Shown here: positions 7,322 to 31,267 of the stretch, in pieces
How the letters are laid out: each line of letters starts with the position of its first letter
Numbering within the stretch: the first letter of the stretch is position 1
DNA from: an uncultured bacterium
GTDB lineage: Bacteria; Bacteroidota; Bacteroidia; Chitinophagales; Chitinophagaceae
Length of the DNA: 32,963 nucleotides
Assembly: GCA_903826405.1 (NCBI GenBank)
Contig: CAIKEH010000041.1
Location: forward strand, 1 to 32,963
Direction of reading: 5' to 3'
Made by a program: the position numbers and the translations under genes
Notes under the pieces: generated by a model
What the model was told of the DNA's origin: nothing
The model's database searches: none
What the model saw: the letters and a program-made list of their open reading frames with translations, nothing else

Positions 7322-7329
7322 TATCTTTG
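7322..7329 (+). promoter_or_regulatory. -7 promoter box TATCTTTG of the SRP RNA gene
   Basis: A perfect match to the Bacteroidota -7 consensus TAnnTTTG ends 5 nt before the predicted 5' end of the SRP RNA at 7334. No clear TTG element is seen at the usual -33 distance. It calibrates where transcripts begin relative to this box in this genome. Confidence 0.65.
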
Positions 7330-7333
7330 CTTC

Positions 7334-7428
7334 GGCAGGTCTTACACGACCAGCTCCTGCTGAACCCCCCCAGGGCCGGAAGGCAGCAAGGGTAGGTGGT
7401 TGAGCGGTGTGATGTAAATCACCTGCCA
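7334..7428 (+). ncRNA. ffs: Signal recognition particle RNA, small bacterial (4.5S) type
   Basis: The conserved apical domain is present around 7370-7394 (CAGGGCCGGAAGGCAGCAAG, then GGTA). It contains the GGAA-type tetraloop and the asymmetric internal loop bound by the Ffh M domain. The ends pair: GGCAGGT at 7334-7340 with ACCTGCC at 7421-7427, closing a rod of about 95 nt. A T-run follows directly (7429-7435) and serves as the terminator. There is no Alu domain, as in other short bacterial SRP RNAs. Exact ends are inferred from pairing and the promoter box. Confidence 0.93.
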
Positions 7429-7496
7429 TTTTTTTCCCCTTTTTCCGGGGATTTATTTTTCCCGCACCCCCATCCGCATCAAATCCTTTTCAGCAT

Positions 7497-20649: not shown

Positions 20650-20657
20650 TATCTTTG
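20650..20657 (+). promoter_or_regulatory. -7 promoter box TATCTTTG of the his operon
   Basis: This is a perfect TAnnTTTG match, identical to the box before the SRP RNA gene. A TTTG at 20621-20624 is 25 nt upstream, longer than ideal for a -33 element. By the ffs calibration, transcription would begin at about 20662, the A of the leader-peptide ATG. Confidence 0.55.
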
Positions 20658-20661
20658 ACCC

Positions 20662-20706
20662 ATGAAGCGTACGGAGCATATCCATCATCACCATTTCTTG
20701 CCATGA
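20662..20706 (+). CDS. hisL: his operon leader peptide
   Basis: The ATG at 20662 encodes MKRTEHIHHHHFLP, 14 residues with five His, and the TGA is at 20704-20706. A His-rich short ORF directly before a terminator and hisG is the hallmark of histidine attenuation: a ribosome stalls on these codons when charged tRNA-His is scarce. No Shine-Dalgarno sequence precedes the ATG, and the -7 promoter box ends only 4 nt upstream, so the message probably starts at or next to the ATG. The peptide itself need have no function. Confidence 0.88.
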   Translation: MKRTEHIHHHHFLP

Positions 20707-20707
20707 G

Positions 20708-20751
20708 GTAAGCCGGGATTAATTATGCTGGACGCATGGATCAGGGCTTAC
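20708..20751 (+). promoter_or_regulatory. his attenuator antiterminator pairing
   Basis: GTAAGCC at 20708-20714 is exactly complementary to GGCTTAC at 20745-20751, the 5' arm of the terminator. Pairing of these two blocks terminator formation. The first arm begins 1 nt after the leader stop codon, so a ribosome reaching the stop covers it and allows termination, whereas one stalled on the His codons leaves it free. Confidence 0.82.
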
Positions 20752-20769
20752 GGAGGTGAGCCTTTTTTT
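20745..20769 (+). terminator. his attenuator terminator hairpin
   Basis: GGCTTAC (20745-20751) and GTGAGCC (20756-20762) form a 7-bp stem with one G-U pair and a GGAG loop, followed by seven T residues (20763-20769). It lies between the leader peptide and hisG. Confidence 0.88.
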
Positions 20770-20797
20770 ATTTTATACCCGCTCATATTTTATTTTC

Positions 20798-21655
20798 ATG
20801 ATGACACTCAGGATCGCGATACAGAAATCAGGCAGGTTATATGAGGATTCCGTTACTCTACTTAAAGAATGTGGGATCGACTTGCGCAATGTGAAAGACA
20901 GGCTTAGGACAGAATCGGATAATTTCCCCTTGGAAGTGTTCTTCCTCCGGGACGACGATATACCCCAGTATGTGGAGGATGGAGTGGCGGACATCGGGAT
21001 CGTTGGCGAAAATGTTCTTTTGGAAAAGAACAGGGATGTGGAGATAGTGGAAAAACTCGGCTTTGGTAAATGCCGTTTATCGATCGCCGTCCCCAGATCG
21101 ATGGTTTATGAAGGTGTTGCGTCACTGTCCGGTAAGAAGATAGCGACCAGCTATCCTTATCTGGTCGCTGGTTATTTGCAAGAGCGGGGGGTAAAGGCCG
21201 ACATCCATGAGATCAGCGGCTCTGTAGAGATCGCACCGGGTATAGGACTTGCTGATGTCGTGGCAGATCTGGTCAGTAGCGGGAGTACATTATTCATGAA
21301 CGGCCTAAAGGAAGTGGAAACCATACTGCAATCGCAATCGGTGCTGATCCGAAACCGGAACCTTGACTCGGATCGGATGGAATTACTTAACCGCCTGCTT
21401 TTTCGCGTTAAAGCCGTCAAAAAAGCAAAACGAAACAAATATGTCCTGCTGAACGCACCCAATGAAAAATTGCAAGAGATCATCTCGCTATTGCCTGGCA
21501 TGAAGAGTCCGACCGTGCTTCCACTTGCGGAGAGCGGATGGAGCAGTGTCCACAGTGTTCTCAGTGAAGATGAATTCTGGGACCGTATCGAAAAGCTCAA
21601 GGGGGCTGGTGCACAGGGCATCCTGGTCATTCCCATAGAAAAAATGGTGATCTGA
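20798..21655 (+). CDS. hisG: ATP phosphoribosyltransferase, long form
   Basis: HisG catalyses the first step of histidine synthesis, joining ATP and PRPP. The 285-residue size and the C-terminal segment after about residue 205 (ACT-like regulatory domain) mark the long, HisZ-independent form, which is feedback-inhibited by histidine. Seen motifs are LRIAIQKSGRL at the start, VADIGIVGENVL near 63-74 and the PRPP loop LADVVADLVSSGSTL near 151-165. The start is ATG 20798 or the adjacent ATG 20801. An in-frame GTG at 20756 lies inside the terminator hairpin and was rejected. The gene is controlled by the attenuator in front of it. Confidence 0.95.
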   Translation: MMTLRIAIQKSGRLYEDSVTLLKECGIDLRNVKDRLRTESDNFPLEVFFLRDDDIPQYVEDGVADIGIVGENVLLEKNRDVEIVEKLGFGKCRLSIAVPRSMVYEGVASLSGKKIATSYPYLVAGYLQERGVKADIHEISGSVEIAPGIGLADVVADLVSSGSTLFMNGLKEVETILQSQSVLIRNRNLDSDRMELLNRLLFRVKAVKKAKRNKYVLLNAPNEKLQEIISLLPGMKSPTVLPLAESGWSSVHSVLSEDEFWDRIEKLKGAGAQGILVIPIEKMVI

Positions 21656-21693
21656 TAGCAGACCCTATATTAATTGATATCAATTTGATCAGT

Positions 21694-22977
21694 ATGAAAG
21701 TCATTCGTCATCCGGACCGGAAAGATTGGCCGGTTTTACTGTCCAGGCCGGTCACGGAAATATCCAGACTGGAGAAGCCTGTGCGGAAGGTACTTGACCG
21801 TGTCCGGAAAAATGGTGATGCCGCCGTACGGAAATTCACCAGGGAATTCGATGGGGTTGCGTTACGCAAATTTTCGGTGAAGATCAAAGAGGTCAAGGCT
21901 GCGAAACTTTCTCTTTCCGAATCACTGAAAGAGGCCATCAAGTTGGCAGCGGCCAACATAGAAAGATTCCATCATGCCCAGTTGCATGGTCCTGAAGAAG
22001 TGGAGACCATGCCCGGGGTCAAGTGTTGGCGACGGGCGATTCCCATAGAGAAAATTGGACTTTACATACCGGGCGGGACAGCCCCTCTTTTTTCAACCGT
22101 TCTCATGTTGGGGATCCCGGCAAAGATCGCTGGTTGCCGTGAAGTGGTTTTGTGCTCGCCGCCTGACAAGGATGGCAACTTGAATCCTGCCATACTTTAT
22201 GCAGCGGATCTTGTGGGTATCACATCCATTTTCAAAGTGGGTGGTGTACAAGCCATTGCAGCCATGTCTTACGGTACCAATACCATTCCGAAGGTGGACA
22301 AGATCTTCGGTCCGGGAAACCAGTATGTGACCCTGGCCAAGATATTGGTACAGCAGGAAGGAGTTGCTATCGATATGCCTGCAGGCCCCAGTGAGGTATG
22401 CGTGCTGGCTGATGACACCTCTCATCCATCTTTTGTTGCGGCCGATCTGCTCTCTCAGGCGGAGCATGGTGTAGATTCCCAGGTTCTCCTCATTTCTGAT
22501 TCTGAAAGAATGATCAGCAGGGTCTTGGATGAATTGGATGGTCAATTACCCTTGCTTGCCCGCAGGGATATTGCTGGTGCAGCCCTGGCCAACAGCCACG
22601 CCATCCTCGTGAAAGACACTCGGGAAGCCATGGAAATGGTGAATACATATGCCCCGGAGCATCTCATACTCTCGTGTGCCCGCGCCGATGAACGTGTTTT
22701 GGAAGTAGTGAATGCAGGTTCGGTTTTCATTGGTGATTACTCACCTGAAAGTGCAGGGGATTATGCAAGTGGCACCAATCACACCCTGCCGACCAATGGA
22801 AATGCACGGGCTTACAGTGGCGTAAGCGTGGACAGTTTCGTCAGGAAAGTGACCTTTCAACAGATCAGCCTTGAGGGATTGAGGTCTATCGGCCCAGCCA
22901 TCGTGTCGATGGCAGAAGCGGAAGGACTTCAGGCGCATGCTGAGGCGGTGAGGATCCGATTGACATTAGGTAGGTAA
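21694..22977 (+). CDS. hisD: Histidinol dehydrogenase
   Basis: From the ATG at 21694 the protein has 427 residues (a TTG three codons upstream was not used). It oxidises L-histidinol to histidine in two NAD-dependent steps using a Zn site. Visible motifs are [18 protein letters not shown] (122-139), [12 protein letters not shown] (205-216), [14 protein letters not shown] (227-240), Zn ligands Gln255 and His258 in SQAEHG, catalytic Glu322-His323 in YAPEHL, and Asp356 in GDYASGTNH. It follows hisG after 38 bp on the same strand. Confidence 0.96.
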
Positions 22978-23017
22978 TGGCTCCTCAGATTCACGTAGAG
23001 AAAAGAAATCAAATACC

Positions 23018-24076
23018 ATGATCATGTTCGACCTTCCCTCATTGGTTCGAGAAAACGTGAAACACCTTGTGCCCTACAGTTCCGCGAGGGATGAATTCAC
23101 GGGCAAGGCTGATGTCTACATTGATGCCAATGAGAACAGTCTGGGCTCCCCACTCACGCGCTGGTATAACCGCTATCCTGACCCTCACCATCAGGCTTTG
23201 AAGGCAAAATTGGGTACGATAAAGGGTGTTTCACCAGAGCATATTTTTATCGGAAATGGCAGCGACGAGGCCATAGACATACTTTATCGCGTGTTCTGTG
23301 TGCCGGCAAAGGATAATGTCATCATTTGTCCCCCCACCTATGGTATGTACGAAGTTTCAGCTCATATCAATGACGTTGAATTGAGAAAAGTGGAACTTAC
23401 CCGTTCGTTTCAATTGGACTTGGAGGCTCTGGAACGTTCAATAGACGGACAAACTAAAATGATCTGGTTATGTTCTCCCAACAATCCGACCGGCAATGTA
23501 CTGGACCGAGCAGATGTTGAAATGGTGCTGAATAATTTCGAGGGTATCGTGGTGGTGGATGAGGCATATATCAATTTCTCCCGACAACGATCCCTCATAC
23601 CTGATCTGGCTGATTATCCCAACCTGGTCATCTTGCAAACCCTGAGCAAGGCATGGGGGCTGGCAGCACTTCGTCTGGGAATGGCCTTCGCTTCGCCTGC
23701 GATAATCGATTTCATGAACCGGGTCAAGCCTCCCTATAACATCAATCAAGCCACTCAGGAATTAGCCTTGCTGGCACTGGATGAAGTGGATCAGGTGAAT
23801 GACATGATCCGGCTTCTGGTGGAGGAACGGGAAAAATTGACTTCAGTGCTTTCAGGTATGCGCGGGATCAGAAAAGTACATGTCTCGGACACCAACTTCC
23901 TGTTGGTGGAGATGGAGAAAGCACATGAGGTTTATAGATTCCTGCTCGACAAAGGAATAGTGGTGAGGGACAGAAGCAAAACTCCACTGTGCGAGGACTG
24001 CCTACGCATCACCGTCGGCACACCAGCTGAAAATCAGAAATTGATCAATGCCTTGATGGCTTTCTCCTTTTCTTGA
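23018..24076 (+). CDS. hisC: Histidinol-phosphate aminotransferase
   Basis: The 352-residue class-I/II PLP aminotransferase converts imidazole-acetol phosphate to histidinol phosphate with glutamate as donor. Seen are DANENSLGSP near 36-45, FIGNGSDEAIDIL, SPNNPTGN at 153-160, DEAYINF at 181-187, the PLP lysine Lys211 in TLSKAWGLAALRLG, and the closing RITVGTPAEN. It lies 40 bp after hisD. ATG 23018 and a second ATG two codons later are both possible starts. Confidence 0.95.
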   Translation: MIMFDLPSLVRENVKHLVPYSSARDEFTGKADVYIDANENSLGSPLTRWYNRYPDPHHQALKAKLGTIKGVSPEHIFIGNGSDEAIDILYRVFCVPAKDNVIICPPTYGMYEVSAHINDVELRKVELTRSFQLDLEALERSIDGQTKMIWLCSPNNPTGNVLDRADVEMVLNNFEGIVVVDEAYINFSRQRSLIPDLADYPNLVILQTLSKAWGLAALRLGMAFASPAIIDFMNRVKPPYNINQATQELALLALDEVDQVNDMIRLLVEEREKLTSVLSGMRGIRKVHVSDTNFLLVEMEKAHEVYRFLLDKGIVVRDRSKTPLCEDCLRITVGTPAENQKLINALMAFSFS

Positions 24077-24100
24077 AATGATCGGGATAGTTTACATTTA
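24073..24100 (+). promoter_or_regulatory. Possible internal promoter at the hisC/dehydrogenase junction
   Basis: TTG (24073-24075), a 17-nt spacer and TACATTTA (24093-24100, one mismatch to TAnnTTTG) lie across the hisC stop, 18 nt before the dehydrogenase ATG. If real, it would let the dehydrogenase, cytochrome and hisB be expressed apart from the attenuator. Confidence 0.3.
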
Positions 24101-24118
24101 CGCACCAAAAAAACGGAT

Positions 24119-25402
24119 ATGCGCATATTGAATTTCTTGACGCTGGCTATTTTATTGTCTTCCGGAACGGCCGGCTTGGCGGGTGAAAAAAAACCGGTCA
24201 GATCCTCCAAACCAATGGTTTCAATGGAAGAGAATGGCGGTATAACCCTTCCCGCAGGATTCCAGGCTTCTATTTTGGCCGACGAACTCGGACGGGCAAG
24301 ACATCTCGCCGTGAATACGAACGGCGATGTTTATGTGAAACTCGACAAACTGAATGAGGGCAGGGGGATTTTGCGGCTGAGGGATGCCAATGGCGATGGC
24401 AAGGCCGAGGACATCAGTGGTTTCGGTAATTACAAGGGTACGGGCATCGCCATCAAGAATGGTTACCTGTATGCCAGTTCTAATGAACAGATATTCAGAT
24501 ATGCCCTTGATAAAACCGGTGTTGCCGATCCTGAAAATCCTGAACTCATCGCCACCGGACTTTGGGACAGGGGGGCTCATTCCTCCAAGTCGATCACCCT
24601 GGATAATGCCGGAAATATTTATGTCAACATAGGCGCTCCTTCAAACGTCTGTCAGGTCAAGGATTTCACCAAGGGATCTCCCGGCATCAACCCCTGCCCG
24701 CTCCTTGATTCCTCCGGAGGCATCTGGCAATTCAGGGTGGATGTTAAAGGACAATCCTACAATAACGGTAAACGATATGCGACCGGACTCCGCAACGTCG
24801 TTGGCCTCGACTGGAATGCTCAGGTTAACGACCTGTTCGTGATGCAACACGGAAGGGACATGTTCTTTCAGCATTACCCCGAGATGTACAGTCAGCAGGA
24901 TGGTGCATTGAACCCTTCAGAGGAGTTCTTTCGTATCAAACCGGGCTCTGATTGCGGCTGGCCATATTGTTATTACGACATGAACAAGAAGCAAAAATTG
25001 ATGAATCCTGAATATGGAGGAGATCGAAACAAAGTGGGTGATTGTGCAGGTAAGACCCAATCCATCCTCCAGTTCCCCGGCCATATGGCACCAGATGGAC
25101 TTCTTTTCTATACGGGTACTCAGTTCCCCGAAAAATACCGTAATGGTGCCTTCATCGCTTTTCATGGTTCTTGGAACAGATCCCCTGAACCACAGGAGGG
25201 TTATTTTGTGGTGTATGTCCCAATAAAAGATGGACTGCCTTCCGGTGATTGGGAGGTGTTTGCCAATGGCTTCGCTCAAGACCTGAAAGATCCCCGGAAA
25301 GCCCGTTTCCGTCCCTGTGGACTTGCTCAAGGACCGGATGGCTCATTATACATATCCGATGATCAGAAAGGACGTATCTGGAAGGTCACTTACGGAAAAT
25401 AG
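24119..25402 (+). CDS. Exported PQQ-type sugar (glucose/sorbosone) dehydrogenase family protein
   Basis: The 427-residue protein has a signal peptide (about 1-22, ending AGLAG). It then shows the six-bladed propeller signatures of the soluble glucose/sorbosone dehydrogenase family: ITLPAGFQASILAD, GRARHLAVNTNGDVYV, YATGLRNVVGLDWN, FMQHGRDMFFQHYPEMY-like strands, GSDCGWPYCYYD, FIAFHGSWNRSP and FRPCGLAQGPDGSLYISDD. Family members oxidise sugars or other alcohols with PQQ in the periplasm, though many Bacteroidota members have unproven substrates. It lies inside the his operon, 42 bp after hisC and 11 bp before a cytochrome c gene, which is a natural electron acceptor. No PQQ synthesis genes are in view, so cofactor supply is open. 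Confidence 0.87.
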   Translation: MRILNFLTLAILLSSGTAGLAGEKKPVRSSKPMVSMEENGGITLPAGFQASILADELGRARHLAVNTNGDVYVKLDKLNEGRGILRLRDANGDGKAEDISGFGNYKGTGIAIKNGYLYASSNEQIFRYALDKTGVADPENPELIATGLWDRGAHSSKSITLDNAGNIYVNIGAPSNVCQVKDFTKGSPGINPCPLLDSSGGIWQFRVDVKGQSYNNGKRYATGLRNVVGLDWNAQVNDLFVMQHGRDMFFQHYPEMYSQQDGALNPSEEFFRIKPGSDCGWPYCYYDMNKKQKLMNPEYGGDRNKVGDCAGKTQSILQFPGHMAPDGLLFYTGTQFPEKYRNGAFIAFHGSWNRSPEPQEGYFVVYVPIKDGLPSGDWEVFANGFAQDLKDPRKARFRPCGLAQGPDGSLYISDDQKGRIWKVTYGK

Positions 25403-25413
25403 ATCATCAAAAC

Positions 25414-25830
25414 ATGAGATACCACAAACCATTTTTTTCTGTTCTTTTGATGACGACTTGTTCATTCATGGTTTTAGCTCAGCAAGGCATGCCCAAGGAT
25501 GTAGCTGCTCGTGGTAAAACGATCTATGGAGCGGTCTGCATGGCATGCCACCAGTCCGATGGGGGAGGGGTTCCAAGATTGAATCCGCCCCTTTCCGGTT
25601 CCAAGACCGTCAATGGCCCCAAGGACAAATTGATCCCGATCGTTTTAAATGGGATGAGTGGTGTGGAGATAGAAGGGGAAAGCTACGGCAATGTCATGGC
25701 CTCACATGCCGATCTGAAAGATCAGGAGATCGCTGATGTGCTGAACTATGTGCGGAATAACTTTGGGAACAAGGCCTCACTTGTCTCTGCTGCGGATGTC
25801 AAGAAAGTGAGGATCAAATTGAAAAAATGA
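25414..25830 (+). CDS. Exported class I c-type cytochrome
   Basis: The 138-residue protein has a signal peptide ending VLAQ (about residue 23) and one haem-binding motif CMACH with Cys42, Cys45 and His46. Met95 in the [11 protein letters not shown] segment is the likely axial ligand, followed by the usual C-terminal helix [15 protein letters not shown]. It would carry electrons in the periplasm, most simply from the dehydrogenase encoded 11 bp upstream. Its stop overlaps the hisB start (ATGA, 25827-25830), indicating translational coupling with a histidine biosynthesis gene. Confidence 0.92.
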
Positions 25831-26996
25831 GTAATAATACCGAAGAGTCAACAGCGAAGAGGGTTTTATTCATTGACAGGGATGGTACCATGATCAATGA
25901 GGCCCCACCTACCTACCAGATAGATTCTTTCGCCAAATTGGAATTTTACCCGGAGGCTATTTCCTGTCTATCCCGAATTGCCATGGAAATGGATTACGAA
26001 CTGGTACTGGTGACCAACCAAGATGGATTGGGTACACCCAGCTTTCCCGAGGCCGACTTTCTTCCAGTACATGAATTGGTCATGAAGACATTTGCTGGCG
26101 AAGGTGTTGTTTTTGCTGCGGAACACATTGATAGGAGTTTTCCGCATGATCATGCTCCCACACGCAAGCCGGGAACGGCGATGCTCACCCGATATTTGAA
26201 TGATCCTTCGTATGACATCCCGAACTCTTTTGTCATCGGGGACCGCATCACCGATGTTCAACTCGCCAAAAACCTGGGTTGCAAAGCCATTTGGTTGAAC
26301 ACCGATCCCAGTCTGGGTGCTGCTGAAGTGAAGGACGATCTTGCTCAACTCCGATCTGTGGTGGCCTTGGAATCCCCATACTGGAATGAAGTGTATAAGT
26401 TCCTGAAAATGGGATTGCGCCACGTTGAACATGTCCGAGCAACCAACGAAACAGATATAAACATAAGGATCAATTTGGATGGCAGTGGGAAGTCTGATAT
26501 CCAAACTGGGTTAGGTTTCTTCGATCATATGCTCGATCAAGTGGCGCGTCATGGCAAGATGGATCTGTACATCAGGACGAAAGGTGATCTTCATGTTGAT
26601 GAGCATCATACCATTGAGGATACCGGCCTGGCGCTGGGCGAAGCCGTAGCAAAGGGATTATCTGATAAAAGAGGGATGGAACGATACGGGTTTGCCCTTC
26701 CTATGGATGAAGCACAAGCCAAAGTGCTGATTGATTTCGGGGGAAGGAGCTGGCTGGTCTGGGATACCGAATTCAAAAGGGATAAAGTGGGGGACATGCC
26801 CACTGAAATGTTCTTCCATTTTTTCAAATCCTTCTCAGATGCTGCTCGATGCAACCTCAACATTGAATGCAAAGGGGAGAACGAGCACCATAAGATCGAA
26901 GCGATTTTCAAAGCTTTCGCAAAAGCCATACGCATGGCTGTAAGAAGGGATCCCCTCAGCAATCACCTGCCGAGTACGAAAGGCTTCATCCTGTAA
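25827..26996 (+). CDS. hisB: Bifunctional histidinol-phosphatase / imidazoleglycerol-phosphate dehydratase
   Basis: The 389-residue fusion has an N-terminal HAD phosphatase (motif DRDGT with Asp17 and Asp19, VTNQDGLG near 56-63, [14 protein letters not shown] near 134-147) for histidinol phosphate. The C-terminal dehydratase starts at about 195, with its metal-binding motifs [13 protein letters not shown] and [10 protein letters not shown], and ends [13 protein letters not shown]. The dehydratase gives imidazole-acetol phosphate for HisC and the phosphatase acts on the HisC product. It overlaps the cytochrome c gene by 4 bp and converges with the DinB relic, with a 2-bp gap. hisH, hisA, hisF and hisI do not follow. 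Confidence 0.96.
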
Positions 26997-26998
26997 GC

Positions 26999-27490
26999 TC
27001 AGGGCAGTGCTTGCAATCCCATGCTTTCCCATTCTTCCCGGGCAGGCCCAAAAGTTCCAGGAACTTTTAATCCCGCTTGTCTCATGAGTATGGTCATCTG
27101 TGAGCGATGATGAATCTGGTGAGCAACCAAGACCCATAGTGCAAATGAATTTGTCCAGGTCTCACCGTACATGACTGTTTGATCAGTAAGTGTCTCATCG
27201 TTCTACTTTGTACGCAGGGCGTTCAAGAAATTCTTTTCCACGATCTTATAGCCATGGACGATATCCTGCACATTCTTCAGATCGGGTTTTTCTTCTTCAA
27301 TCCACAGATGCAATTTATGGGGCATCTCCGTTAAGGTTTCCATGATGTGATTGGCAAGCCTTCCTAAAGTTCGACCTCCGGGAACCACAGACTGGTCCAG
27401 TGAACTGTCTGTGAGATGTTCAAACACATTCAGTGTTGCCTTGGATTCCATTTCCCATATCTCGATAAAATCGCTAATTCGCTGGAACAT
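26999..27490 (-). pseudogene. DinB-family protein, interrupted by an in-frame TAG
   Basis: From the ATG at 27490 the frame runs 95 codons (MFQRISDFIEIWEMES and onward) to a TAG at 27205-27203. The same frame then continues another 68 codons (NDETLTDQTVMYGETWTNSF and onward) to a TGA at 26999. The rebuilt protein would be 164 residues including the stop position, the normal size of a DinB four-helix protein. The metal-ligand His in LANHIME lies before the stop; the HQIHH pair lies after it. TAG at a spot where TGG would fit points to a single nonsense change. DinB proteins are metal-dependent enzymes, some thiol transferases. A sequencing error remains possible. Confidence 0.78.
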
Positions 27491-27523
27491 GAAACAGGAT
27501 TGTGTAAGTTCAAATTGGAGTGA

Positions 27524-28633
27524 TCAAACTTTGAAGAATATACGTTTCTTATACAGAAACCAGCATATTCCCCATTCCAGGGCAAAAATAACGGCGGAGG
27601 CCATGATGTTTTTAATGATCGTGGTCATGCCCGTTGGACCCAGTAAGCCAAGTACCACTTCGTTGACATAGTCATTGAACCATCTGCTTGCCACGATCTC
27701 GAAGAAAAGGTAAATGAATAGGGCATTCATTCCCATCACGGTGAAGAACAGGAGATTTTTTCGATGACCCTGTACGTCCACCCACCAATAGCAAGCTGCA
27801 AGTCCAAGCAAACACCAGCCCAGCGAAGCCAGGGTGAAGGAAGATGTGGCGATGCGTTTGATTATAGGAGTTATTCCTGTCCAATCCAGGGAGAAGCCAA
27901 TTAGCAGGCATGCAGCAGCAGCGATCAAGAGAGTCCGAGTCTTTTTGTTGCTATTCCCTAATAAAAACTTTCCGGCCATGGCACCAGCAACCGTGTGCAC
28001 GGCAGTGGGTATGCAATTAATGGCCACCCATCCTCCACCGTTTATCTTGTTCATCAAGATGGTGTCCATGTAGTTTCCAAAGTTGTGCTGATCGGTGAAA
28101 GGTTGATCGAAACCGGGCACATGTGTAAAGCGGTACAGTATCTCCGTGAGCAAAAGTAGTCCGACGCAGAAAATGGCCTGGGTACGCAATTCCCAGCCGA
28201 ACACGAGAAAGGCTACGAGTGAAGTGAAGGACAGTTGGGTAAGGACGTCCCAAAGTTCGAAGGATAGACCATCCTTCCTTACGGCATAGTCTAAAACACC
28301 CCAGAAGAATAACCAAGCACTTCGTTTCAAGGCTTTTTTAAAGGAGCTTGTCCAGGAAACCCCAGCCTTATGTTGTTTATCCAACGAGAAGGCAAGGGCC
28401 ACGCCGGCAATGAACATGAAACCGGGTTGGATGAGGTCCCAGAAGCGCAGTCCATTCCAGGGATGGTGAAATAATTGACGCATGATCGGTTCCAATGGGC
28501 CATTACCCGTTGCCTCTGCGACATGTTCAAACATTCGTGTACTTTCCAGGCAGAGCAGCACCATGATGATGCCACGCATGAGGTCCAAAGAAAGCAGACG
28601 TTGGGGAAGCGGGTTTGTCTGATCCGGTGTCAT
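27524..28633 (-). CDS. DUF5009 / heparan-alpha-glucosaminide N-acetyltransferase-like membrane protein
   Basis: The 369-residue polytopic membrane protein has about ten hydrophobic segments. It starts with the family opener RLLSLDLMRGIIMVLLCLES and continues with IQPGFMFIAGVALAFSL near 68-84. It resembles bacterial relatives of lysosomal HGSNAT (YeiB/DUF1624/DUF5009 type), which pass acetyl groups across a membrane onto amino sugars. The human enzyme's activity is known; for the bacterial proteins the substrate is mostly untested. It lies 33 bp upstream of the broken DinB gene on the same strand. A link to the amino-sugar enzymes at 10219-13091 is only suggestive. Confidence 0.8.
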   Translation of the reverse strand: MTPDQTNPLPQRLLSLDLMRGIIMVLLCLESTRMFEHVAEATGNGPLEPIMRQLFHHPWNGLRFWDLIQPGFMFIAGVALAFSLDKQHKAGVSWTSSFKKALKRSAWLFFWGVLDYAVRKDGLSFELWDVLTQLSFTSLVAFLVFGWELRTQAIFCVGLLLLTEILYRFTHVPGFDQPFTDQHNFGNYMDTILMNKINGGGWVAINCIPTAVHTVAGAMAGKFLLGNSNKKTRTLLIAAAACLLIGFSLDWTGITPIIKRIATSSFTLASLGWCLLGLAACYWWVDVQGHRKNLLFFTVMGMNALFIYLFFEIVASRWFNDYVNEVVLGLLGPTGMTTIIKNIMASAVIFALEWGICWFLYKKRIFFKV

Positions 28634-28787
28634 GGGTCAATTTTGCAAGAAAATAGGTTTTTTTTTTGAATTGATCGAAATCGTATCTCTCCAAGATACT
28701 AAGTGTGCCGATCCTCCATTATACAGCTCCGGGTGGGATGATTTATTTAAATATATATTCGCGACACACCGAAGACTGAAAGTAAAT

Positions 28788-28820
28788 ACGCATCTTGTAT
28801 GCTGGCTCGGATGCGTTTTT
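28788..28820 (+). terminator. Orphan terminator-like hairpin between divergent genes
   Basis: ACGCATC (28788-28794) and GATGCGT (28810-28816) form a 7-bp stem with a 15-nt loop followed by T residues to 28820. It sits in the 295-bp gap between the acyltransferase start (28633) and the HPP gene start (28929), where no annotated gene ends. It may end a small transcript or act in the HPP leader. I see nothing else firm in this gap. Confidence 0.45.
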
Positions 28821-28928
28821 ATGTTCTTCTCGTACTTCCGGTTGTAATATTGATAAAAATGATATGCGGAGGTAAAAATTCATTTTTAATATCTTGTGTG
28901 GCCTTCAAAAGATTCATAATAAAAAAAA

Positions 28929-29537
28929 GTGATCAATAAAAGCATAAAACGAGGGGTGAAGTTCTCACTGAATGTCCTGTCCAGGGAAACTTCAGTTGAT
29001 GTTAAAGACCATTTTTGGTCTTTCCTGGGTGCATTTATTGGTATCAGTCTGATATCATTAGCCCAAATCCAGCTCTTGACAAGAGTGGAGAACATATTCC
29101 TGATTGCTTCCTTCGGAGCATCAAGTGTGCTCATATATGGTGCTGTTGAAAGCCCGCTTGCCCAACCCCGGAATTTCATTTTCGGGCCACTGATTTCTGC
29201 TATCATAGGTGTTACGGTATATAAGATGCTGCCAAACACGATCTGGTTATCTGCCCCTCTTGCTGTTTCGCTTTCTTTGGTGGCCATGCAGATCACGAAA
29301 ACACTACATCCTCCTGGCGGAGCGACAGCCTTGATCACCGTGATCGGTACTGAAAAAGTTAAGGCATTGGGCTACTTTTTTGTTTTGACACCCGTATTGA
29401 CCGGTACCCTTATACTTTTTGTGGTCGCCTTGATTTTCAACAATTTGACAACGCACAGAAGATATCCCAAGAGCGGCAGCCTGGCGGATCCCATCAGGCG
29501 GTTGTTTGTCAGAGATAAAATCAAGGACAAGGATTGA
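28929..29537 (+). CDS. HPP-family integral membrane protein
   Basis: The 202-residue protein starts at GTG 28929, since there is no in-frame ATG before the conserved region. It has four to five membrane segments (about 33-50, 58-78, 95-115, 118-135 and 150-180). The name-giving signature is LHPPGGATALI near 125-135, and WSFLGAFIGI and LIASFGASSVLIYG are also typical. Some cyanobacterial and plant HPP proteins have been linked to nitrite transport in plastids; the role in Bacteroidota is not established. It precedes the trp leader by about 150 bp and is probably a separate unit. Confidence 0.85.
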   Translation: MINKSIKRGVKFSLNVLSRETSVDVKDHFWSFLGAFIGISLISLAQIQLLTRVENIFLIASFGASSVLIYGAVESPLAQPRNFIFGPLISAIIGVTVYKMLPNTIWLSAPLAVSLSLVAMQITKTLHPPGGATALITVIGTEKVKALGYFFVLTPVLTGTLILFVVALIFNNLTTHRRYPKSGSLADPIRRLFVRDKIKDKD

Positions 29538-29650
29538 CTTTGATGAAGCCTGTGCAGCGGATGGGAAAGTGCTTCCACTCAAGTGGTTTCTATTGAATCT
29601 TTCAACAAATCGGCCGGCACTATCCATGGTGTCACACGAACGCAGATTTT

Positions 29651-29681
29651 TTGGTCAGTATTCAAAAATCCCTCATATTTG
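29651..29681 (+). promoter_or_regulatory. trp operon promoter (TTG-N20-CATATTTG)
   Basis: TTG at 29651-29653 (within a run of six T and G) and CATATTTG at 29674-29681 (one mismatch to TAnnTTTG) are 20 nt apart, matching the Bacteroidota -33/-7 layout. The box ends 6 nt before the trpL ATG at 29688. Confidence 0.65.
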
Positions 29682-29687
29682 TCATGC

Positions 29688-29738
29688 ATGACAAACTTGA
29701 TAGCAAATAAGATCTGGTGGTGGCATACTAAATCCTAA
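29688..29738 (+). CDS. trpL: trp operon leader peptide
   Basis: The ATG at 29688 encodes MTNLIANKIWWWHTKS, 16 residues with three consecutive Trp codons at 29715-29723, ending TAA at 29736-29738. Trp is rare, so three in a row directly before a terminator and trpE mark a trp attenuator leader. There is no Shine-Dalgarno sequence, and the promoter -7 box ends 6 nt upstream, so the transcript probably has almost no 5' UTR. A second ATG at 29684 is out of frame and leads to a stop after eight codons without Trp. Confidence 0.9.
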   Translation: MTNLIANKIWWWHTKS

Positions 29739-29784
29739 GGGGTCTGTAGCGTCACGTCTATGTCTTTCCAACATATCAGGCCCC
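29739..29784 (+). promoter_or_regulatory. trp attenuator antiterminator pairing
   Basis: GGGGTCTG (29739-29746), starting at the base after the trpL stop codon, can pair along 8 bp (one G-U) with CAGGCCCC (29777-29784). This removes the 5' arm of the terminator. A ribosome stalled on the Trp codons leaves the first arm free; one at the stop codon covers it. Confidence 0.83.
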
Positions 29785-29803
29785 GCTAATACCGGGGCCT
29801 TTT
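29779..29803 (+). terminator. trp attenuator terminator hairpin
   Basis: GGCCCCG (29779-29785) pairs perfectly with CGGGGCC (29793-29799) across a 7-nt loop, followed by TTTT and an AT-rich tract. It lies 33 bp before trpE and after no other gene, so it is an attenuator rather than an operon end. Confidence 0.9.
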
Positions 29804-29836: not shown

Positions 29837-31267
29837 ATGAAGAAGATCAAACTGCAGACGACCAGCAAGAGGATGATGGCCGACCTGTTCACTCCGGTCG
29901 GTATTTACCTTCGACTGCGTGACCGATTCCGCGATACCATCCTGTTGGAAAGTACGGATAGTCATGTCGCTGAAAACAGCTATTCCTTCATCTGCATAAA
30001 TGCCATTGCGGGGATGGAGATCACAGACACTCATCACCTGGAGTTCAAATATCCGGGTGAGGTGCCTCATCGGGTAGATATCAAAGAAGGGCAATCAGTA
30101 CCCGAACTGATCTGGTCTTTCATGAATCATTTTGAGGTGGTTTCTGAATCCCCTGAAGCTTCATTTGCACAGGGCTTATACGGCTATTCCAGTTTTGATT
30201 CCGTTCAGTTCTTCGACAGCATAAGATTCCGCGATAAAAGGATCGGGGGTGCTCCTGCCGATATACCACTCATGAGGTACAGGCTTTACCAGTACATCAT
30301 TGCCATCAATCATTACAAAGATGAACTTTATCTGCTGGAGAATAAGTTGGATGGACTGTCCGGTGAGCCAGGCTTGATCGAAAACCTCATTCTCAGTAGG
30401 GACTTACCTCAATATCCTTTTGCGCTGAATGGTCCGGAAACATCCAACTTGACGGATGATGAATACCGGGACATGGTCAGCAAGGGTATCGCCAGCTGCC
30501 ATCGCGGGGACGTTTTCCAGATCGTGCTCAGCAGAAGCTTCAGTCAGCCATTCACCGGTGATGATTTCAATGTGTACAGATCGCTGAGGAACATAAATCC
30601 ATCCCCTTATCTGTTTTATTTCGATTACGGCAGTTACAAGATCATGGGATCCTCACCGGAAAGCCAGCTCATCATCAGCAAAGGGAAGGCCATCGTCCAT
30701 CCCATCGCTGGAACATTCCGTAGGTCCGGCGACGACGAAATTGACAAGTTGGAAGCGGAGCGGCTGCTCGCCGATCCCAAAGAAAATGCAGAACATGTCA
30801 TGCTGGTTGACCTTGCCCGGAATGATCTCAGTCGGGTGTGTGATGAAGTGTCCGTAGTCCATTACCGGCAGGTCCATTACTATTCGCATGTCATCCATCT
30901 GGTCAGTGAAGTGGATGGTAAGGTCAGACCGGGTAGCAATCCTTTCGAATTGCTGGCACAGACTTTTCCTGCCGGAACCTTGAGTGGTGCACCCAAGTTC
31001 AAGGCAATGGAACTGATAGACAAGTATGAGCATACTTCACGGTCATATTATGGTGGTGCCATCGGTTTCATGGGATTCAACGGATCCTGCAACCATGCCA
31101 TCATGATCCGGAGCTTCCTCAGTCGGAACAACACCCTGCTTTGCCAGGCGGGAGCGGGTGTGGTCGCTGCCAGTAAGCCCGAGCATGAATTGCAGGAGGT
31201 CAACAACAAACTGGGAGCACTTAAAAAAGCCATCAGCTACGCGGAAAATGTAGGGCAATCCATTTAA
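29837..31267 (+). CDS. trpE: Anthranilate synthase component I
   Basis: The 476-residue chorismate-using enzyme makes anthranilate with ammonia from TrpG. The N-terminal LLES motif at 36-39 (tryptophan feedback site) separates it from PabB. The catalytic half has GSSPESQLI, the PIAGTFRR segment, DPKENAEHVMLVDLARNDLS, FPAGTLSGAPKFKAMELI and YYGGAIGFMG. It is first in the trp operon after the attenuator, 40 bp before trpG. Confidence 0.96.
   Translation: MKKIKLQTTSKRMMADLFTPVGIYLRLRDRFRDTILLESTDSHVAENSYSFICINAIAGMEITDTHHLEFKYPGEVPHRVDIKEGQSVPELIWSFMNHFEVVSESPEASFAQGLYGYSSFDSVQFFDSIRFRDKRIGGAPADIPLMRYRLYQYIIAINHYKDELYLLENKLDGLSGEPGLIENLILSRDLPQYPFALNGPETSNLTDDEYRDMVSKGIASCHRGDVFQIVLSRSFSQPFTGDDFNVYRSLRNINPSPYLFYFDYGSYKIMGSSPESQLIISKGKAIVHPIAGTFRRSGDDEIDKLEAERLLADPKENAEHVMLVDLARNDLSRVCDEVSVVHYRQVHYYSHVIHLVSEVDGKVRPGSNPFELLAQTFPAGTLSGAPKFKAMELIDKYEHTSRSYYGGAIGFMGFNGSCNHAIMIRSFLSRNNTLLCQAGAGVVAASKPEHELQEVNNKLGALKKAISYAENVGQSI

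Follow-up and report, generated by a model that had tools for sequence, protein, structure and literature searches.

How is a ribosome brought onto the leader peptide of a transcription attenuator in a bacterium without Shine-Dalgarno initiation? This question is raised by the elements upstream of the his and trp operons of an uncultured Chitinophagaceae bacterium (assembly GCA_903826405.1, contig CAIKEH010000041.1). The window, that is the whole stretch of DNA analysed here (32,963 nucleotides, nt), is contig C41 in a genome of 3.58 Mb, and carries a short open reading frame (ORF) with a run of His codons in front of hisG and another with a run of Trp codons in front of trpE (Table 1). Bacteroidota do not use Shine-Dalgarno pairing, and no Shine-Dalgarno-like sequence was found between the -7 box and the leader ATG of either element. 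We consider it highly likely that both are ribosome-mediated transcription attenuators whose RNA starts at the leader ATG or 1-3 nt before it. By their sequence the his and trp elements are attenuators beyond reasonable doubt; that their leaders are near-leaderless, which depends on the predicted starts, is very probable.

Attenuators upstream of hisG and trpE

The attenuator reading follows from the His-run and Trp-run ORFs and the terminators lying directly upstream of hisG and trpE. As in ribosome-mediated attenuators, each element combines a codon run matching its operon (HIHHHH before hisG, WWW before trpE) with an antiterminator and a terminator that exclude each other. The antiterminators are more stable than dinucleotide shuffles, for his (20704-20753) with -18.7 kcal/mol and a z-score of -4.33, for trp (29736-29786) with -14.5 kcal/mol and z -2.21. 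The terminators are likewise better than shuffles (z -2.48 for his and -2.61 for trp).

The -7 boxes end 4 nt (his) and 6 nt (trp) before the leader ATG. In Flavobacterium johnsoniae a box-to-start spacing of 4 or 5 nt is described (PMC6847099), and in F. psychrophilum the box is placed at -12 to -5 (PMC9723704). This published spacing puts the predicted his start on the A of the AUG (4 nt) and the trp start 1-2 nt before the AUG. Placed from the conserved box, the 5′ untranslated region (5′UTR) would measure 0 nt for his and 1-2 nt for trp, with 0-3 nt taken as the leaderless limit as in PMC8079986. When both strands of 349 kb from this genome were counted, TAnnTTTG was present 164 times, i.e. 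0.235 per kb versus 0.244 expected for six fixed bases, and at a frequency so near to chance a box would seldom fall at one particular gap by accident. A leaderless peak in the box-to-ATG gaps was not shown over these 349 kb, for which the counts are too sparse.

An earlier reading of this DNA, made from the letters alone (the sequence-only reading), had described the same boxes and gaps without a Shine-Dalgarno sequence, and the window bears this out. It had also taken the ffs gene of the window as a yardstick, with a -7 box exactly 5 nt before the RNA 5′ end. The 5-nt gap is obtained by taking the beginning of the helix at 7335 as the 5′ end; the Rfam match (7326-7432), however, starts within the ffs -7 box (7322-7329), and for this reason ffs was rejected as a precise yardstick. 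Of the starts derived in this way, his on the A of the ATG and trp 2 nt before it, the first holds at the published 4-nt spacing and the second agrees with our 1-2 nt, but the ffs gap applied literally would move the his start to the U of the AUG (20663). The ffs yardstick is compatible with the predicted starts, though not independent. As a side observation, the Rfam model Bacteroidales_small_SRP may contain promoter sequence at its 5′ end, given the overlap of its match with the box (window 7322-7335).

Geometry of ribosome and antiterminator

The antiterminator 5′ arm (segment or arm 2) starts 0-2 nt past the leader stop in the window, in agreement with the sequence-only reading, which had put it within 2 nt. 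From the last regulatory codon to arm 2 the distance is 15 nt in trp and 12 nt in his (to GGTAAGCC). Of 76 trp leaders of named genomes, introduced below, 73 have 12-16 nt between the last regulatory Trp codon and the beginning of arm 2, with a search region beginning 9 nt past that codon, and in 71 arm 2 begins 8-12 nt ahead of the stop. A ribosome at a stop codon is described to cover as much as 12 nt beyond it (PMC4833913). By this geometry, a ribosome at the stop codon of the named trp leaders would cover arm 2 and could act as the switch that had been proposed. Coverage of segment 2 by the ribosome at the stop codon is the textbook mechanism, and in this respect the attenuation is classical. 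The last codons of the related trp leaders (RGL, RGK, RGM; L256-L335) look conserved because they encode arm 2.

From the anatomy, the spacing and the competing folds, which can be read directly, we infer the start site, translation of the leader, the sensing response and the timing as follows. RNA polymerase would start at the leader start codon or 1-3 nt before it, and a ribosome would load on an essentially leaderless 5′ end. When His or Trp is scarce, it would stall on the regulatory codons and leave arm 2, which in the window begins 12-15 nt past the last of them, free to pair with arm 3, so that transcription could proceed into hisG or trpE. When the amino acid is plentiful, the ribosome would reach the stop codon abutting or overlapping arm 2 and cover this arm, and the 3:4 terminator would form. 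In the his leader of the window and of most of the genus, a short 1:2 hairpin may hold arm 2 in the absence of a ribosome, similar to the enterobacterial scheme.

Conservation of the leader spacing in the genus

We searched 41 genomes of the genus, with a HisG match in 34 and a TrpE-family match in 40, and examined 30 his and 30 trp loci, the window included. The best-scoring box was chosen while ignoring the start codon; for the 5′UTR counts a leader had to possess a start codon, and TTG was not counted as a first start. A leader was found at 29 of the 30 his loci (L003 has none) and at all 30 trp loci. Of the 29 his leaders, 28 have a predicted 5′UTR of exactly 0 nt, the remaining one being L011 with 51 nt. 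For trp, 29 of the 30 leaders are at 0-3 nt, the other being L060 with 19 nt; the value at L041, L042, L043, L046 and L047 is 1 nt. In most leaders of the genus, TTTG is present 18-22 nt upstream of the box. When the upstream DNA was shuffled, 17.5% (his) and 11.4% (trp) of the trials placed the start codon at -1 to 6 nt. Among 233 ordinary ORFs of the same genome serving as control, -2 to 6 nt was reached by 22 of 139 at a box score of at least 5 and by 6 of 35 at a score of at least 6; at the same two cuts, the intergenic subsets gave 10.5-18%. Hence the expectations that the box-to-ATG distance is conserved and that the leaders begin at the predicted RNA 5′ end or a few nt from it are borne out by the genus counts, the latter also by the named genomes described next. 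In many trp leaders of the genus (L034-L059), sensing appears to rely on one Trp codon, with His as the next residue (GWH or SWH).

Leader spacing in other families and operons

Among 352 TrpE relatives from named genomes the best 80 were kept, which are 66-73% identical. They include Pseudobacter, Terrimonas, Niastella, Puia and Sediminibacterium; many are titled Chitinophagaceae and the rest are mostly unassigned Bacteroidetes or Sphingobacteriales. On this basis the window is assigned to the Chitinophagaceae or their vicinity. Enough upstream DNA was available for 78 loci (L306 and L307 were too short), and four had no leader. Of 74 trp leaders, 71 have a spacing of 0-5 nt to the predicted start, which is exactly 3 nt in 49 of them, and the other three are at 17, 31 and 54 nt. 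The totals of 74 here and 77 below result from slightly different leader rules. The named and the genus set overlap, as the leader peptides of L298 and L036 are identical, and likewise those of L324 and L034.

A wider sample of the phylum comprised 109 genomes, with HisG matches in 97 and TrpE-family matches in 101. Upstream DNA was taken for 70 his and 50 trp loci including those of the own genome, the most similar ones first, plus some distant his loci. A leader is present at 50 of the 69 other his loci and at 42 of the 49 other trp loci. It begins at -1 to 6 nt in 27 of the 42 trp leaders (null 10.7%) and in 20 of the 50 his leaders (null 12.1%). At least one trp leader at 6 nt or less occurs in 13 of the 14 sampled families having a trp leader, and in family f14 the trp spacing is 2-4 nt in five of six leaders. 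Judged by predicted starts, short leader spacing is common and lineage-dependent, not universal. The his leaders of family f21 have a 5′UTR of 0-1 nt in 11 of 14 cases, mostly with GTG starts. No intrinsic terminator was found in them in our scan, and for this reason they are not called attenuators here. Upstream of hisG in this family (L151-L166) we noted His-rich ORFs with hairpins inside the ORF, possibly another regulatory design.

Other amino acid operons of the same genus were inspected as well. A Phe/Tyr-rich leader, pheL, lies upstream of pheA with a predicted 5′UTR of -1 to 3 nt in all 11 called of 12 loci, among them that of the window's genome with 3 nt (L244). L245 was not called, although its sequence shows a Phe/Tyr-rich ORF at a gap of 5 nt; L242 is incomplete and L255 was not used. 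In L243-L254 a terminator-like hairpin and a T-run follow the near-leaderless ORF, an apparent pheA attenuator. The leaders of the aspartokinase gene L214-L217 and L235 contain Thr/Ile-rich ORFs that end near a conserved AACCCGTTAAGGGTTG, which is a hairpin carrying the stop codon in its loop; no T-run terminator is obvious. No ilvD leader was seen by eye in 14 loci.

A possible 1:2 hairpin

In the his leader of the window, CTTGCC (20697-20702) can pair 6/6 with GGTAAG (20707-20712) around the stop codon; the trp leader shows 4/6 of the 1:2 pairs. The genus alignments comprise 27 of 29 his and 28 of 30 trp leaders, near-duplicates (L013, L023, L046, L056) being left out, and the his pairing count also leaves out L011 and L025, which have no arm-2 motif. 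At least 5 of the 6 pairs are kept in 24 of 25 his leaders (300 shuffles: mean 4.9, maximum 13) and in 24 of 28 trp leaders (300 shuffles: mean 6.1, maximum 13). The sequence-only reading had held that there is no separate pause hairpin, and for his this is not confirmed, given the possible pairing in the window and in the genus. Its suggestion of a departure from the enterobacterial four-segment model is likewise not supported for his, and fits the trp leaders of the named genomes, in which 1:2 pairing is not above chance (5 of 76 versus a shuffle mean of 10.5 and a maximum of 18). On these alignments the genus looks four-segment and the related named trp leaders three-segment, with the trp leader of the window in between.

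In its strong form, the earlier reading amounts to a true three-segment switch: with no 1:2 hairpin, the operon would be on by default when no ribosome is present, and fast loading at the 5′ terminus would be required to turn it off. This is possible, though we find it rather doubtful. The chance level of complementarity to arm 2 in the 76 named trp leaders favours such a switch, as do the four pairs of the window trp leader and the fold of this region (z 0.92), whereas the pairs kept throughout the genus argue against it. That a longer 5′UTR goes together with a stronger 1:2 hairpin was rejected, the mean z being -0.25 to -0.05 in both 5′UTR classes of the phylum sample. This absence of a relation also speaks against the three-segment switch, in a comparison that is weak either way, as the duplex test behind it detected the E. 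coli his 1:2 hairpin (z -2.38) and missed that of E. coli trp (z 0.86). The 1:2 stem showed no covariation, with 775 and 1285 of 2000 row shuffles reaching the observed pairing, and in the window the 1:2 region folds no better than shuffles (z 0.15 for his and, as said, 0.92 for trp).

Alternative explanations

The same attenuators could also be carried by leadered transcripts, with the real start further upstream, the TTTG box being incidental or a secondary promoter, and initiation proceeding in the Shine-Dalgarno-free way usual in Bacteroidota. We regard this as unlikely. In its favour, most mRNAs in Bacteroidota are leadered, and only about 4-13% have a 5′UTR of about 10 nt or less: leaderless mRNAs are given as 5.5% in F. 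psychrophilum (PMC9723704), a 5′UTR under 10 nt is reported for 3.7% in Bacteroides thetaiotaomicron (PMC7366714), and for F. johnsoniae 13% are given as having no leader longer than 10 nt (PMC6847099). Leaders of 12-31 nt in some families and a his box without a -33 TTTG in the window point in the same direction. It is opposed by the spacing in the genus, since a rule blind to the start codon yields 0 nt for nearly all his and 0-3 nt for nearly all trp leaders, and by the TTTG that precedes the box in most of them.

Besides the two null results on the 1:2 stem, several points weigh against attenuators with near-leaderless starts. The box score gives half credit for a C at the first position, which was chosen after the trp boxes had been seen, and tied scores were resolved to the most downstream box, towards the start codon; the shuffle null and the own-genome control were scored by the same two rules. 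The sequences of the genus are related and not independent. For hisL, which has no spare base, the uncertainty of 1 nt in the spacing matters, and no TTTG was found 18-22 nt upstream of the his box of the window. In family f5 the spacing is 12-16 nt at seven of ten trp loci and 13-31 nt at nine of ten his loci, and in family f14 it is 17-29 nt at seven of ten his loci. As some families run the same operons with leaders of 12-31 nt, a near-leaderless start is not required. Finally, the Thr/Ile leader thrL upstream of the aspartokinase gene lies at 10-12 nt in the three called of six loci of the genus, and the window's own genome gave no thrL call.

That the upstream ORFs act by translational coupling or an RNA-binding protein, and not by ribosome-mediated transcription attenuation, is very improbable, as nothing positive was found for it beyond the f21 his leaders without a terminator in the scan, which may work differently, and as the terminator arms pair 7/7 in all 25 motif-anchored his leaders of the genus (with arms located by motif, so that the 2:3 and 3:4 pairing counts are partly by construction), a terminator is present in 76 of 77 named trp leaders, and the codon runs match the amino acid of the operon.

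Operon organization

The coordinates of both attenuators with near-leaderless predicted starts are listed in Table 1. According to profile matches, hisL is followed by hisG, hisD, hisC and hisB, and trpL by trpE, a trpG-type gene and trpD. Between hisC and hisB (24119-25830), two non-his genes are located, encoding a GSDH-like protein (PF07995) and a cytochrome c (PF00034). In Terrimonas ginsenosidimutans an apparent long inverted repeat was seen upstream of the trp leader (L258, 939-1032), with sub-threshold matches of microRNA models on both strands.

Table 1. Features of the his and trp attenuators and of ffs in the window
Feature	Position	Strand	Remarks
ffs -7 box	7322..7329	+	yardstick of the sequence-only reading
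his -7 box TATCTTTG	20650..20657	+	sigma-ABfr type; 4-nt gap to hisL ATG 20662
hisL leader ORF MKRTEHIHHHHFLP	20662..20706	+	HIHHHH; stop TGA 20704-20706; predicted +1 at 20662
his segment 1 CTTGCC	20697..20702	+	possible 1:2 hairpin with 20707-20712, enclosing the stop codon
his segment 2 GGTAAGCC	20707..20714	+	antiterminator 5′ arm; antiterminator -18.7 kcal/mol, z -4.33
his segment 3 GGCTTAC	20745..20751	+	common to antiterminator and terminator
his segment 4 GTGAGCC and T-run	20756..20769	+	intrinsic terminator
hisG	20798..21655	+	first his operon gene; TIGR00070 match
trp -33 TTTG	29650..29653	+	20 nt upstream of the -7 box
trp -7 box CATATTTG	29674..29681	+	6-nt gap to trpL ATG 29688; one mismatch to TAnnTTTG
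trpL leader ORF MTNLIANKIWWWHTKS	29688..29738	+	WWW; stop TAA 29736-29738; predicted +1 at 29686 or 29687
trp segment 2 GGGGTCTG	29739..29746	+	antiterminator 5′ arm; antiterminator -14.5 kcal/mol, z -2.21
trp segment 3 CAGGCCCC	29777..29784	+	
trp intrinsic terminator GGCCCCG..CGGGGCC and T-run	29779..29803	+	
trpE	29837..31267	+	first trp operon gene; TIGR00564 best match, under the curated cut-off (391.2 of 517.7 bits)

Implications and comparison with known attenuators

Loading of the ribosome at the 5′ terminus as a timing device appears to us a good idea, and it can be extended to a proposal for the lineage. According to this proposal, the leaders of His, Trp and Phe attenuators have been selected to start 0-5 nt from the RNA 5′ end, with 5′-terminal loading as the starting gun of the race between ribosome and polymerase. 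A fixed ruler of 12-16 nt from the last regulatory codon to arm 2 would do the sensing, and in leaders lacking the 1:2 hairpin, only the ribosome would keep the operon off. We put this forward tentatively, as plausible but somewhat short of an even chance. If true, these leaders would offer a natural test of how leaderless RNA is loaded with ribosomes where bacteria lack Shine-Dalgarno initiation. It would also imply that transcription and translation are closely coupled in this branch of the Bacteroidota, since the attenuator works only if a ribosome has arrived at the leader stop by the time the polymerase completes the terminator. Unannotated attenuators in these genomes could then be sought simply by two spacings, 4-7 nt from the -7 box to the start codon and 12-16 nt from the regulatory codons to arm 2.

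The leaders of the E. coli trp and his operons start behind a Shine-Dalgarno site. With E. coli trpL and hisL the elements of the window share the run of regulatory codons in the leader peptide, the 2:3 antiterminator, the 3:4 terminator and, in his, a possible 1:2 hairpin; unlike them, they start at the predicted RNA 5′ end. The trp leader of the window matches the Rfam family RF00513 (Trp_leader) end to end with 28.6 bits (E 3.8e-4), below the gathering score of 41; several of the pairs are non-standard, in part within the 1:2 stem. One of 14 relatives tried was listed (L284, 33.3 bits), and the E. coli control reached 93.1 bits. For RF00514 (His_leader, gathering score 49), no match was obtained in the window stretch or in 12 loci tried, the own one included, with 131.6 bits for the E. 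coli control.

Within the Bacteroidota, clues for leader-peptide attenuation are described for structured 5′ regions upstream of amino acid operons in F. psychrophilum, and the elements upstream of pheA and hisG are described as conserved in other Flavobacteriaceae (PMC9723704). Unlike the present analysis, the sections of that report drawn on here carry no statement on leaderless leader peptides. Among the matches listed in the open-licence PMC literature, we found no account of attenuator leaders being leaderless in Bacteroidota.

In other bacteria, leaderless attenuators have already been published. The 5′ end of the trp attenuator RNA of Sinorhizobium meliloti (rnTrpL) is described as the ATG of trpL (PMC7298713). 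Compared by description, it differs from the window in not belonging to the Bacteroidota and in also yielding a trans-acting small RNA and a peptide. The Cys-rich upstream ORFs of mycobacteria are leaderless short ORFs with a regulatory codon run upstream of matching genes (PMC4633059); unlike the window elements they sense cysteine, occur in Actinobacteria and are described as translation attenuation (PMC13236596, whose reference list contains the title of Canestrari et al. 2020 on these ORFs). In Streptomyces lividans the leader peptides LeuL1, LeuL2, ThrL and MetL are described as leaderless (PMC8079986), and so is the ilvBNC leader of Corynebacterium glutamicum (PMC11857589). Both serve other amino acids than the leaders of the window, and LeuL1 is described as lacking a typical terminator, with termination at ThrL and MetL being unclear (PMC8079986). 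Since similar switches are known in these bacteria, the his and trp attenuators of the window would extend a known theme to another phylum and do not represent a new mechanism.

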